A stretch of DNA of 64,000 nucleotides from Geranomyces variabilis. Its lineage: Eukaryota > Chytridiomycota > Chytridiomycetes > Spizellomycetales > Powellomycetaceae. Shown one piece after another: positions 59,356 to 64,000 of this stretch. Location: assembly GCA_027603065.1 (NCBI GenBank), contig JADGJP010000042.1, forward strand, positions 145,261 to 209,260. The letters are read 5' to 3'. Made by a program: the position numbers and the translations under genes. Position 1 is the first letter of the stretch, and the number at the start of each line of letters is the position of its first letter. The notes below the pieces were generated by a model. That model did no database searches. It saw nothing but the letters and a program-made list of their open reading frames with translations, and was not told the DNA's origin.

Positions 59356-59527
59356 GGGTCTTTCGTTATGGGCAGCAGCTTTCGGGTAGAGGGAATGGCT
59401 CGCGATGAATGAGTGACAGCGCGTGCATGCGCCACACTGCGACGGTGAAACTCGTTCCCACAACACATATCGCCGGTGTAGCTTACACATATAAGGCATC
59501 CCCATTAACCCCGCACCAACGCCAACC

Positions 59528-60376
59528 ATGACCCTTCCCGCATTCGACGCATCCGCCGCATTCCATCTTACTGCATCACCGCATCCCTCGTGGCAGCCGA
59601 CGCAAAACCAACCTAGCTTGCCCGAGCACGGCAAGTCGGTTTCGATCGACCCGACCCAGCTGGCAAAGCCCGACTGCTACAAGTTTCTCATCTCTGCGGT
59701 AGTACCGCGGCCGATCGCGCTCGTGTCGACCATCGACAGTGCTACCGGGGTGGTCAACGTAGCACCTTATTCGTACTTTAATGTTGTCTGTCATGACCCG
59801 CCGACGCTTATGGTATGTCATTTCGAGAGCAGTGTCTTCAAAGCGTTGGCTAAACAGCATACTCACTCCGTCCCGTCGCCCCGCTCGGAACAGATTTCAG
59901 TCAACGCAGGACGTGCGGGCCAAAAAGACACGCTTCGCAACCTCCTGTCTACGCCGAACCTAGTCATCAACACCTTCAACGAGTGGATTGCCGAGTCCGC
60001 CAACCACACCACAACACCATACCCGGCACATGAATCGGAGCTCGGGCCATCGGGACTCACGCCGATTCCTTCAGACCTTGTCGCCCCACCGCGTATCGCC
60101 GAATCGGCAGTGTCTTTCGAATGCCGCGTGGCCAACATAAACATGCTTTGCAACGCCGATGGCAAGCAGACTGCGGCCGTGGTGCTGTGCACTGTTGTTA
60201 AAGTGCATGTAAAAGAGGGTGTGTATGATCAGGAAAAGGGTGTCGTCGAGATGGAAAAGTACAAGCCGCTTAGCCGTCTCGGCGGTGTAATGTATGGCCG
60301 AACCGTGGAGGGTTTTGAACTTCACCGACCTATGAGCGTGCAGGTAGAAGGCCCCACTTCGGCGGCCGCCAAGTAG
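59528..60376 (+). CDS. flavin reductase-like (FMN-binding split-barrel) protein
   Basis: FMN-binding split barrel related to RutF/HpaC-type proteins; many eukaryotic members are uncharacterised. A likely 81-nt intron (59814-59894, GTATGT...GAACAG) is a multiple of three with no stop; removing it gives PPTLMISVNAGRAGQKDTLR, the typical motif. Domain features: CYKFLISAVVPRPIALVSTI, GVVNVAPYSYFNVVCHDPPT, GQKDTLRNLLSTPNLVINTF, RIAESAVSFECRV and YKPLSRLGGVMYG. About 255 aa after splicing. Cytosolic in appearance. The ATG at 59528 is 172 bp from the divergent DYNC2LI1 start. Confidence 0.85.
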   Translation: MTLPAFDASAAFHLTASPHPSWQPTQNQPSLPEHGKSVSIDPTQLAKPDCYKFLISAVVPRPIALVSTIDSATGVVNVAPYSYFNVVCHDPPTLMVCHFESSVFKALAKQHTHSVPSPRSEQISVNAGRAGQKDTLRNLLSTPNLVINTFNEWIAESANHTTTPYPAHESELGPSGLTPIPSDLVAPPRIAESAVSFECRVANINMLCNADGKQTAAVVLCTVVKVHVKEGVYDQEKGVVEMEKYKPLSRLGGVMYGRTVEGFELHRPMSVQVEGPTSAAAK

Positions 60377-61304
60377 ATAGACACAATTGGCTTAGACCCC
60401 GTTTCGCTTAGCAGAAAGAAGGTTTTAAAGATGCTATCAATAAAACTACTGCTGGGTGAGCGCTCGTCCATTTCCGGGATTTGGTGCTGAGACATATTGT
60501 TGGTATCGTTGGTGTTGCCAGATAATCTTCGCGTCTAGTCAATCTCCGTCCACAGATTTTTCCACAAATAGGAGTTGACGTCAGAATGCTCGGTGGGATG
60601 AGCTCTATTGGTTACAGGGGTATCGAACAAGTATAACTCGGATTGACAGAGTTATGACCTTCGGATGCCAAGATGTTGAAGCTGTTACTGCGCGCTCTCG
60701 TTCTTGGCCCACAGATTTTTCTACAAGTGGGTGTTGATGCCACAATGCGTATGAGAACGAGGTTTATCTGTGGTGAGGATATCGTGCAAATATAACTCGG
60801 ACTGATGGAGTTACGGCCTTGCAATGTCGGAAATGTTGAAGCTGGCCGTTCTTGGCCCACAGATTTTTCCACAAATGGAAGTGAGGGTCAGGATGCTCTT
60901 TGGATCAATCTTGACCGCTGCCGTGAACGAGGGCCCAGTATAACTCAAGGTGAGGTCGGGTTCGAGTTTTGAATGTCGAGAGATGGCGAGACTGACAGTA
61001 CAGGTTTCTCTTAAGTGCCTCCCCGCGCGCCATACGTTCTCTTGCGCGCTCGCGAGCGACGCGGGTTGATTTTTATTACAAGTCCCTCTCAGGGTCATGC
61101 AGCGCACTTGCCGCACAGCAGACGCAGACATCTCTTTTTCTTGTGTCGCACTCCTCTGCCTGCCTTTGCCCACCACGCTGCACGCAGCAGCATTCTGCTC
61201 TCTTTCAGGTAAGTTCAGACTCATGCTCATGTAGCCACTCCACTCCACGCACAGCAGTGCCTAACTTTAGTTCCCTCCTTTCTGCAGCTTAATGCTCCAC
61301 AGCC
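60377..61304. other. intergenic region with diverged tandem repeats upstream of the Fanzor-type gene
   Basis: Contains three diverged repeats (described separately) and, at 61209-61287, what looks like an intron in the 5' untranslated region: CTTTCAG|GTAAGTTC...TTTCTGCAG, 17 nt before the ATG at 61305. No other ORF is convincing. Confidence 0.55.
60545..60960. repeat. tandem repeat, unit about 150-160 bp, three diverged copies
   Basis: The anchor CACAGATTTTTCCACAAAT recurs at 60551, 60710 and 60858 (with CTACAAG in the second copy). A second anchor TATAACTCGGA.TGA..GAG recurs at about 60632, 60791 and 60939. Spacing is 159 and 148 bp. Copies are clearly diverged, so the array is old. It ends about 350 bp before the Fanzor-type start. 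Confidence 0.8.
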
Positions 61305-64000
61305 ATGTCTCGTCGCTGCCGCCGCTCAATTAACCTAATATCTCTTCCACGGACGCCACTTCTTCAGTCGTCGCCGCCACCACCCAGCAAGCGTCAACGT
61401 TGGAATGAGGAGGCTGCCCGCCATGCTGCAATTTTTGTAGGAGACGCTGGCGCACAGCTGGACGAGATTGAGGAGATGGACGCCGGCGCAATGCAGCTGG
61501 ATGAGGTTGAGATGAATGCCCACAATGGCTTGGGATGGCATGCACCCCAGAGATGGGCCAATTCACATGGCCCTCCGCCGCCGCCATCGCTGCCGCCGAA
61601 AGAGCAAAGCGCTCACCACCAAGCAACTACGTGTGCGTAAAAGCCCGTTTCGGTTCAATCATTCACAACAACAAGGCCGATGAGGTGGCAAGACTTCAAG
61701 TCTTCCTCCGCCACATGCATCTTATAACTCAACGGGCGTCATGGATAATGAAGCTGTGGTATGCCAACATGCCACACCCGCAGGTATATATTGCTGATTC
61801 AATTAAAAGCATTATTATGCATCATATATTGACTTCTATCTTTTTTCAAGCGCGCACAGATCTTGACAGACAAGGACGTCAAACATCTGCTGGATGCTCT
61901 CAACTACGGTGAAATCACTCGCGGCGGCATCTTTCAAGGCACGCTGCATGATTATGACACCAATGTTGAGAATCTGACGGCGGTATCACAAGGCCCAGGG
62001 TGTAGATGTGGCCTTCTTCAAAATACGATTGCCTACACTGCTACTAGCTTGGTTACAAACCTTGTGGTCAACGTGTCCGTCAACTTCATGAAGAAGTTGC
62101 GCCAATACGTCGAGCGCAGGTTTCGCATCAAGGCAATTTTGCGGGAGTTCAACCACGTTACCGACAAACGCATCCGCAAGTTCCTGTGTAAACATCTACG
62201 GCGTTGTTTTAACCGGCTGTGGAGACTGATCACAAACCAGGATGTTCTCACTGATGGCAAACTACCAGCCTTTGAACCCACTTCCGCTTCCGACAGCGTT
62301 TTCTTTGATATTTAAGGTGAGATTTTGTGCATCTTGCCAGCTGATGCAAAATCCCTCGAGTTCAATCTTGCATATGCGGTGGCATGCGAACCTGCAAAAT
62401 ACGTCGGCGCATATTGTGCACTCTCTCGCTTGTGGCAAACGGCGCGATTTCCGGCACTCTTCTCGGCTATACCTGTTCGCATCAGCCATGTTCAATCGTA
62501 TGTCCCCATTGACACGAAGACGCTCCTCAATGTTATAACTCGCCCACCTGGCTGTTCAAATCTACTTCACTCAACTCTCGAGCAAAAGCTGAGATATTGG
62601 AACATGCTTTGCGACGTCAACCACAAGTCTTTTCAAGATCGCGGAAATTATAAGTTTTCAGGTATTGCATTTGTGATGCTGTCTGCGTGTATCATACTAA
62701 TTGCTAAACCTCTGTTAGGAACTATCATGACGAACGGCATCGGTGTCTCGGTTCGGCATGTTCACAAGACCAAGATTACTGTGACTGCAAAGGGCCGTCC
62801 CATGATGCCAAAACCACGCAAAGTATCCAAGGCAGCCCAGCGTGCAGTGGTCGACAAGCTCTACATTGACACGCCAGAAAATGCTGCGATTATTCGTGAC
62901 CGCATCTTGCATTCAGACCCCAATGCGCCAGTGGTCCTCTGTGATCCGAATATCCGTGACATGCTGTATTTGAAAGAGTACGGCACCGACAATATCATGC
63001 GGTATACACTCTCGCAGCAGAAGAAGGAAACGAACGCTTGCAAGCCTGTTAAAGAGTGCAACAAGGACCGGCTCCGCAACTTGCCAGCGTCAGGCAATAC
63101 TATGGGATCTTTAGAGGCAACAATGCCGGGGCACAAGTCAATGCTGGTAAGTTATAGTAGCGGTAGTTCTGAGATGCTGTAATGCTGTAATGCTGTGATG
63201 CTGTGATGCACAATGCTGTGATGCGCGATGCCGCTGGATTGTATGGTGGATGCTGGAATGCTGTGATGCGCAATGCGCGATGCAAATGCTGGAGTGGGCG
63301 GATGCTGTAATGCGCGATGCACGATGCAGATGCTAGAGTGGGCGGATGCTGTGATGCGCGATGCGCGATGCAGATGCTGAAGGGCACAGCGGATTGCATG
63401 GTGGATGCTGTGATGCGCGATGCAAATGCTGGAGTGCACGACAGATTGCGCGGCGGATGCTGTGATGCTGTGATGCTGTGATGCGCGATGCGCAATGCTG
63501 GAGTGCATAGCGGATGCTGTGATGCGCGATGCGCGATGCTGTGATGCGCGATGCAAATGCTGGAGTGCATGGCGGATTGCATGGTGGATGCTGTGATGCT
63601 GTGATGCTGTGATGCTGTGATGCTGTGATGCGCGATGCAGATGTTGGAGTGCACGGCGGATGCTGCGACGCGGTGCGACGTGGTGCCGTTTTTGACATCA
63701 GTCACCGGTAACTATTTTTTTTTTTCTTTTTTTCTGCTAGGCCCTCGACTTCAATCAATGGCTGGCATTTCAAGTGCAGCATCGCCTGGCATTTGAAAAC
63801 TGCTATGCTACAACCACCCGATGGCGCCGCCGCCGATTTGAAGCTTTTCGTCTAGCACGCAAGAGCGAAGATCAGTTTGTGAATCGGCTTCGCAAGCAGT
63901 TTGGCCAAGATCCCCTTATCATTATGGGAGATTGGTCTGCGGCGCCTCGCAGCATGCGTTTCCAGCCTCCCATCAAGACGGCACGTTTTCGTACAATGCT
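61305..64000 (+). CDS. Fanzor1-type nuclease (eukaryotic TnpB-like), 3' end beyond window
   Basis: Fanzor proteins are eukaryotic RNA-guided DNA nucleases related to TnpB. Exons: 61305-61398 (weak donor; the ATG at 61535 is an alternative start), 61551-61783, 61860-62661, 62719-63146 and 63741 to the edge. Signatures in order: RFGSIIHNNKADEVARLQVF and IMKLWYANMPHP; LLQNTIAYTATSLVTNLVVN; EPAKYVGAYCALSRL; VPIDTKTLL; RYWNMLCDVNHKSFQDRGNY; then GTIMTNGIGVSVRHV (the Fanzor TDGVSVS block); RuvC-I VVLCDPNIRDMLYL with Asp at 62943; MRYTLSQQKKETNA; RWRRRRFEAFRLARKSEDQF; and LIIMGDWSAAPRSMRF with GDW at 63927. In Fanzor the canonical RuvC-II Glu is replaced and an alternative Glu lies about 45 residues on, which would be just past the window. 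An in-frame TAA (62313-62315) lies in the third exon. The RNA-guide region would be expected at the unseen 3' end. Confidence 0.83.
63170..63695. repeat. minisatellite inside a Fanzor intron
   Basis: About 0.5 kb of degenerate tandem units built from GATGCTGT, GATGCGCGATGC and AAATGCTGGAGTG modules, in higher-order blocks of about 60-90 bp (for example TGCTGGAGTGCA.. recurring near 63285, 63428, 63499, 63559 and 63643). It lies wholly within the 594-nt intron 63147-63740, whose ends are GTAAGTT and a long T-rich tract followed by CTGCTAG. Confidence 0.88.

Follow-up and report, generated by a model that had tools for sequence, protein, structure and literature searches.

The right edge of the analysed DNA, a stretch of 64,000 nucleotides (the window; contig C37, positions 145261-209260), carries coding sequence that an earlier note, made from the letters alone, had read as a Fanzor1-type gene. 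The host, Geranomyces variabilis, is a chytrid fungus of the Spizellomycetales. The locus raises the question of whether this sequence is an intact gene, what kind of unit it belongs to, and how that unit may have spread through the genome.

Structure of the window copy

The motifs quoted for the gene, which are listed with their exons in Table 1, were all found on the plus strand and in the order claimed. GT-AG borders are present at all three introns between exons 1 and 4. The joined exons do not form a single open frame, due to a frameshift in exon 1 and an in-frame stop codon in exon 2. In exon 1, the frame opened by the start codon can be aligned with exon 1 of the paralog L018 no further than residue 85 of 157, and the remaining part of the exon is in a different frame from about position 61511; the frameshift was placed from these two observations. 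The 3′ border of the copy lies beyond the end of contig C37, whose last base (209260) is also the last base of the window, and the remainder of the copy is outside the assembled sequence. Within the contig, the first Asp is the only member of the RuvC triad. Since the contig end cuts the window copy, the RuvC Glu, the zinc ribbon, the last Asp and the 3′ end were read in the paralogs. The window copy is a decayed pseudogene or relic, truncated by the contig and one of about thirty copies. Thus, the claim of a Fanzor1 gene at the right edge stands as regards identity, whereas the gene is not intact, as is evident from the frameshift, the TAA at 62313 and the cut by the contig end.

Table 1. Features of the Fanzor1 copy in the window (positions are those of the window)
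Feature	Position	Strand	Basis or remark
Fanzor1 element, part in the window	61033..64000	+	blastn vs paralog L018, 84.9% identity; 5′ border approximate, first base with L018 homology
Probable intron in the 5′ untranslated leader	61209..61287	+	GT at 61209, AG at 61286-61287; inferred from sequence
Exon 1	61305..61783	+	frameshift near 61590; model by comparison with L018
Exon 2, carries AYTATSLVTNLVVN	61851..62661	+	model by comparison with L018
In-frame TAA stop in exon 2	62313..62315	+	L018 equivalent is Trp
Exon 3, carries MTNGIGVSV, CDPNIRDMLYL and MRYTLSQQKKET	62719..63146	+	model by comparison with L018
RuvC-I Asp codon (GAT), equivalent of SpuFz1 D383	62943..62945	+	alignment to 8gkh
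Intron 3, 594 nt, GATGC-type minisatellite throughout	63147..63740	+	
Exon 4 to contig end, carries MGDWS	63741..64000	+	

Two further features were observed on the left side of the element. Positions 59495-60376 contain an ordinary flavin-reductase-like gene (PF01613, E 6e-18), with a 90% match to HDU88_006303 of Geranomyces variabilis. Related repeat segments (‘cccacagatttttccacaaatgg’), which Tandem Repeats Finder did not list, occupy positions 60474-60960 just upstream of the element, and this repeat also adjoins the Fanzor copies L010, L021 and L023.

Assignment of the encoded protein to Fanzor1

The open reading frame 62316-63182 alone matches SpuFz1 (8gkh) with E=2.9e-12, and the exon-4 open reading frame 63741-63998 matches the same protein with E=1.2e-7. 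Together with the 21 places in the genome that encode exon 3, these matches lift the motif set beyond chance. The product of L018 matches SpuFz1 with E=6.4e-62 (residues 87-761) and PpFz1 with E=6.4e-22. Its CDPN, IDEF and NRD motifs align with D383, E541 and D606 of SpuFz1 (residue mapping with an 8gkh chain offset of 394), which are given as the catalytic residues of that enzyme in PMC11423790. The Asp in CDPNIRDMLYL, which the earlier note had named as RuvC-I, is equivalent to D383 and was correctly chosen. The downstream Glu and the last Asp that it expected further to the right are present in the paralogs as IDEF and NRD, in L012 as in L018, and four zinc-ribbon cysteines are found between them in L018. 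The first zinc knuckle of L018 is extended to C-x13-C. The same spacing is seen in P0001-P0004; C-x2-C is present in four of the five distant relatives of alignment A1, the one without it being P0015, and SpuFz1 has CPRC.

The predicted fold points in the same direction. An AlphaFold2 model of the close relative P0001 (807 aa, built from a 23-row alignment; mean pLDDT 69.3, pTM 0.60) matched SpuFz structures best, with E values of about 1e-34 and TMt of 0.82-0.85. The top seven PDB chains belong to SpuFz, PpFz and GtFz, and AsCas12f matched weakly (E 8e-4). A Pfam-A search gave no useful match for the window Fanzor pieces, the L018 product or P0001. Among 25 protein matches to residues 300-760 of L018, the best 12 are all from Geranomyces variabilis and are 75-90% identical; the next is 33% identical. 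Membership in Fanzor1 is supported by the sequence matches, the triad, the zinc cysteines and the predicted fold of a relative, and the chytrid host agrees with it. As judged from the sequences of its paralogs, the family is shown to encode a Fanzor1 protein with a complete RuvC triad.

The Fanzor1 family in the genome

Across the 23.8-Mb genome, 21 places encode exon 3 with 69-100% identity, partial matches included; 20 of these regions were taken for study. The L018 copy on contig C45 consists of five exons of 471, 805, 425, 375 and 255 nt, which encode a product of 776 aa in an uninterrupted frame. The joined exons of L012 encode 784 aa, also without interruption and with GT-AG borders at all four introns. 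Both ends are in view in five copies; L010, L019 and L023 contain stops in the exons, and L012 and L018 contain none. The median pairwise dN/dS for exons 1-5 is 0.20, 0.34, 0.30, 0.17 and 0.39 (120, 153, 136, 21 and 15 pairs, respectively). The low range of these values, 0.17-0.39, implies that the copies descend from lineages under constraint at the protein level. Strong recombination was detected among 17 copies in exons 2-3 (PHI 0.514 vs 0.639, sd 0.008, p = 0.001). GATGC words abound in intron 3 of all 18 copies where this is measurable. The length of the intron is about 480-1230 nt in the 15 copies that show both of its ends, a range computed 3-4 nt short (cf. the exact lengths of 541 nt in L018 and 594 nt in the window).

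The exon-3 matches are concentrated near the ends of contigs: 14 of the 21 lie within about 1.2 kb of one, with the length of C41 not seen. This is explained by assembly breaks inside the repeated element. A subtelomeric location was rejected, as the contigs break inside the element and exact telomere hexamers were not seen in the 15 ends inspected.

Some loci carry further sequences of note. L061 (C34:725699), L063 (C71:24158) and L065 (C26:99019) are divergent Fanzor-like exon-5 matches of 40-57%; the 3′ end of the element was not found in the 500-700 bases examined per locus. At the contig ends of C13 (L011) and C67 (L027), the same sequence of ~75 bases directly follows interrupted Fanzor sequence. 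This is perhaps another repeat that inserted in both copies.

The fixed 3′ end and its predicted fold

Six copies with long flanks stop abruptly at one common base, past which their sequences are unrelated. The sharp 3′ end was read in 28 copies, 27 of which end in TTGTA and one in TTGTT. The 28 right flanks are all different over 12 bases. A contig end lies at a distance of 75-78 bases from the 3′ end in 14 of the 28 copies and of 83-180 bases in seven more. Mean identity among seven copies is 96.6% in the last 80 bases, 95.1% in exon 4, 91.7% in exon 5 and 84.1% in intron 4.

The last ~57-61 bases are predicted to fold into two stems, the second of which closes on the final base of the element. 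In the last 61 bases of L038, stem 1 (GACCAG/CUGGUC) is followed by a linker of 4 nt and by stem 2, which runs from UACAGGC to GCUUGUA around GGGGCGGC/GCCGCCCC and closes on the last base. The fold of this 61-nt stretch has an energy of -32.4 kcal/mol and a z-score of -3.11, and 2 of 200 shuffled sequences folded as well. The 80-nt stretch of the same copy folds more weakly (z -2.12, 8/200 shuffles as good). A second subtype of the 3′ end has four bases fewer and keeps a stem 1 of 4 bp (z -2.18, 6/200 shuffles).

A search with the stem-1 pattern returned 33 places, the 28 ends and five older ones, and none in the control. A sixth older end, L057, was missed by the pattern. Single folds of the older ends L057, L058, L059, L060 and L062 keep stem 1 and an apical hairpin, in part with altered sequence, such as GAGGCG/CGCCUC in L057 and L059. 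The predicted folds of L057 and L062 include the stem that closes on the last base, and those of L058, L059 and L060 do not. The z-scores of these five ends range from -1.07 (L058) to -3.12 (L062). The hairpin is lost in L064 (z -0.25). Around the scaffold-like 3′ end of L058 (C42:66139), no Fanzor coding sequence was detected in about 1.5 kb to the left or right, and L058 is a possible ghost locus.

Thirteen end sequences were aligned with MAFFT (alignment A2), with L064 and the near-identical L049, L051 and L052 left out. In A2, 93.0% of the cells are paired, compared with 34-52% in slid registers. The formal covariation count found no pairs changed on both sides, and the shuffles were not exceeded. 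By our reading, the hairpins of L057 and L059 are wrongly placed in A2, and the covariation is regarded as suggestive and not as shown. The model R1 gave 26 full-length matches among 43 rows from 30 sources, a result that is largely by construction since R1 was built from A2; none of the matches is in the window, L061, L063 or L065. The earlier note had suggested looking for conserved non-coding RNA across the 3′ end; the paralogs show a conserved end with a predicted two-stem fold, and the count gave no covariation.

The right flanks of two of the 28 copies, L018 and L012, were searched against the genome as 18-mers, allowing two mismatches at most. Neither had an exact match other than its own site. 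Two-mismatch places numbered 1 and 3, respectively, compared with 1 and 1 in a reversed-pattern control.

Variable 5′ leaders

The 5′ leaders vary among 17 copies and fall into three main types by our own reading, which leaves L022, L026 and L028 outside the classes. Type A is found in L009, L013, L015, L016, L018 and L024, and type B in L011, L014, L017 and L025. In L010, L019, L020, L021, L023 and L027 the leader consists of Copia reverse-transcriptase sequence in antisense orientation, to a varying extent; this call comes from two pieces of L019 that match RVT_2 (E 7.4e-15 and 4e-12), and the other five were assigned by similarity to L019. L012 has a leader of another type. L010 and L021 have a further upstream stretch in common. 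The L035 copy is truncated at the 5′ side and contains exon 4 onward only, with the standard 3′ end.

The borders of L010, L012, L018 and L019 were compared for the signs of a cut-and-paste element. Comparison of the leader with the last 80 bases gave inverted matches of 6-7 nt at most. Target duplications were sought as well, and no match was longer than 6 nt or abutted the element. An SPu-1-type element was rejected as a candidate, as neither terminal inverted repeats (TIRs) nor convincing target duplications were found in these four copies.

Proposed explanation and its alternatives

We propose, with a probability of about 0.72, that the window contains a decayed, truncated copy of a multi-copy Fanzor1 element that is one-ended and carries a predicted omega-RNA at its sole fixed end. 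The copies are shown to share one sharp 3′ terminus and to differ in their 5′ leaders. The omega-RNA scaffold would be made up of the last ~57-76 bases and would be co-directional with the gene, and the guide would be supplied by the initial ~15 bases of the right flank, so that the RNA of each insertion would be addressed to its own site. The omega-RNA is placed at the 3′ end because the predicted fold has the same order and flush closure as the SpuFz1 scaffold. According to the description in PMC10432273, the omega-RNA of SpuFz1 has a 75-nt scaffold with two stems and a 6-nt linker; stem 2 contacts run from U35 to A75, and a guide of 14-15 nt from the flank follows. This placement of scaffold and guide is considered probable. 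The unit may move in a one-ended, 3′-anchored, Helitron-like manner, mobilised in trans, with 5′ sequence gained or lost, a mode of movement that we moderately favour. The nuclease might also cut alleles without the insertion, into which repair would then copy the element; the odds for this step appear evenly balanced. An element without any transposase partner, whose sole fixed terminus would be the omega-RNA and in which its own flank-guided Fanzor cuts and repair would spread and homogenise the copies and the 5′ end would mark the stop of repair synthesis, is regarded as improbable. If true, Fanzor itself would drive a one-ended, RNA-addressed mobile element.

The 3′ hairpins might instead be only a DNA signal for transposition, either a Helitron-type terminator or an IS605-type end, with no omega-RNA there. 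Both the terminal hairpin and the one-ended behaviour would suit a Helitron as described in PMC3627910, the same fold could form as a hairpin in DNA, and the covariation count on A2 is none. However, the arrangement of two stems and a linker, closed by the final base, agrees with the published SpuFz1 omega-RNA (PMC10432273), and pair 34-67 of A2 is G-U in 13 of 13 sequences, with eight cells of other pairs being G-U or U-G; such cells imply pairing only as RNA of the gene's strand. A pure DNA signal is considered rather unlikely, and the two roles of the 3′ end could both be true at once. As regards a Helitron partner, the PF14214 profile search for the Rep protein gave no match in this genome and likewise none in any control genome. 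PIF1 matches lie on three contigs, C4, C20 and C39; the two that were inspected, C20 and C39, appear to carry common helicase genes with introns. The element ends in CTTGTA and not in CTRR (27/28 ends have TTGTA), and as regards the asymmetric inverted repeats of Helitron2, only inverted matches of 6-7 nt were seen in the four copies compared.

A subtelomeric or host gene family that has been propagated through segmental duplication and gene conversion, without being mobile, would account for the crowding of exon-3 matches at contig ends, the strong recombination between copies and the constraint on the coding sequence. Yet no exact TTAGGG or CCCTAA was found in the last 500 bases of the 15 contig ends, and the 3′ ends that stop 75-78 bases from a contig end, half of the 28, look like assembler overlap. 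The right flanks are also not common to the copies: compared with the collected loci, the 28 flanks gave one weak match, and empty-site reconstruction from repeats yielded nothing more. This origin is judged very improbable. The least probable of the alternatives is a cut-and-paste DNA transposon with TIRs and a target duplication, such as SPu-1 of Spizellomyces punctatus. SPu-1 is described as a unit of about 2.1 kb with a single ORF, TIRs of 30-33 bp, TA duplications and the TAM CATA (PMC3627910, PMC10432273), and according to the same accounts it carries SpuFz1, the closest of the characterised relatives. Against such a transposon stand the short inverted matches and the missing bordering duplications in L010, L012, L018 and L019, and the different leaders of the copies.

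Significance

Literature searches for Fanzor together with Geranomyces, or for the Geranomyces genome together with transposable, returned nothing, with supplementary catalogues outside their scope. In the discussion of PMC10432273 the biological role of Fanzor is called unknown. What appears new here is a variant of Fanzor1 whose single fixed end carries a predicted omega-RNA, with 28 separate addresses predicted for it. One genome in which 28 insertions share an end and differ in their predicted guides offers a natural test of how the element spreads. Uninterrupted and broken copies stand side by side with signs of recombination, and same-species proteins from other assemblies are in the databases. 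Comparisons between strains could reveal empty and filled sites, the TAM, the guide and conversion tracts. A second apparently one-ended Fanzor1 lineage outside Chlamydomonas would bear on the change of transposon partners.

Comparison with known systems

The Geranomyces element resembles SpuFz1 and SPu-1 in having the same triad, a matching fold (TMt 0.82-0.85 for the P0001 model), a chytrid host and multiple copies. A 3′-terminal scaffold with two stems, as published for SpuFz1 (PMC10432273), is also predicted here. The identity of the P0001 model to SpuFz1 in the structural alignment is 28-29%. Unlike SPu-1, the Geranomyces element contains five exons, a minisatellite intron and the C-x13-C first knuckle, no TIRs were found in the four copies compared, and its 5′ leaders are variable. 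PpFz1 of Parasitella parasitica and GtFz1 of Guillardia theta share the Fanzor1 fold and motifs, GtFz1 by fold only, with 17% and 14% identity in the structural alignment, respectively; other TAMs are given for both in PMC11423790.

The Helitron2 elements CRe-1, 2 and 3 of Chlamydomonas reinhardtii are described in PMC3627910 as exon-bearing Fanzor1 elements with frequent 5′ truncation, a 3′ hairpin and foreign sequence at some 5′ ends. Compared by this description only, the Geranomyces element is similar in its exons, 5′ truncation, 3′ hairpin and foreign 5′ sequence. According to the same source, CRe-1, 2 and 3 have ends in common with confirmed Helitrons, some of them with duplications, whereas in Geranomyces the searches turned up no Helitron partner, and the end is CTTGTA. 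The one-ended features of the Helitron type are present in the form of the 3′ hairpin, 28 fixed ends, 17 variable leaders and the truncated L035. The best reading is that the Geranomyces element is probably one-ended, in which behaviour it would resemble the Helitrons.
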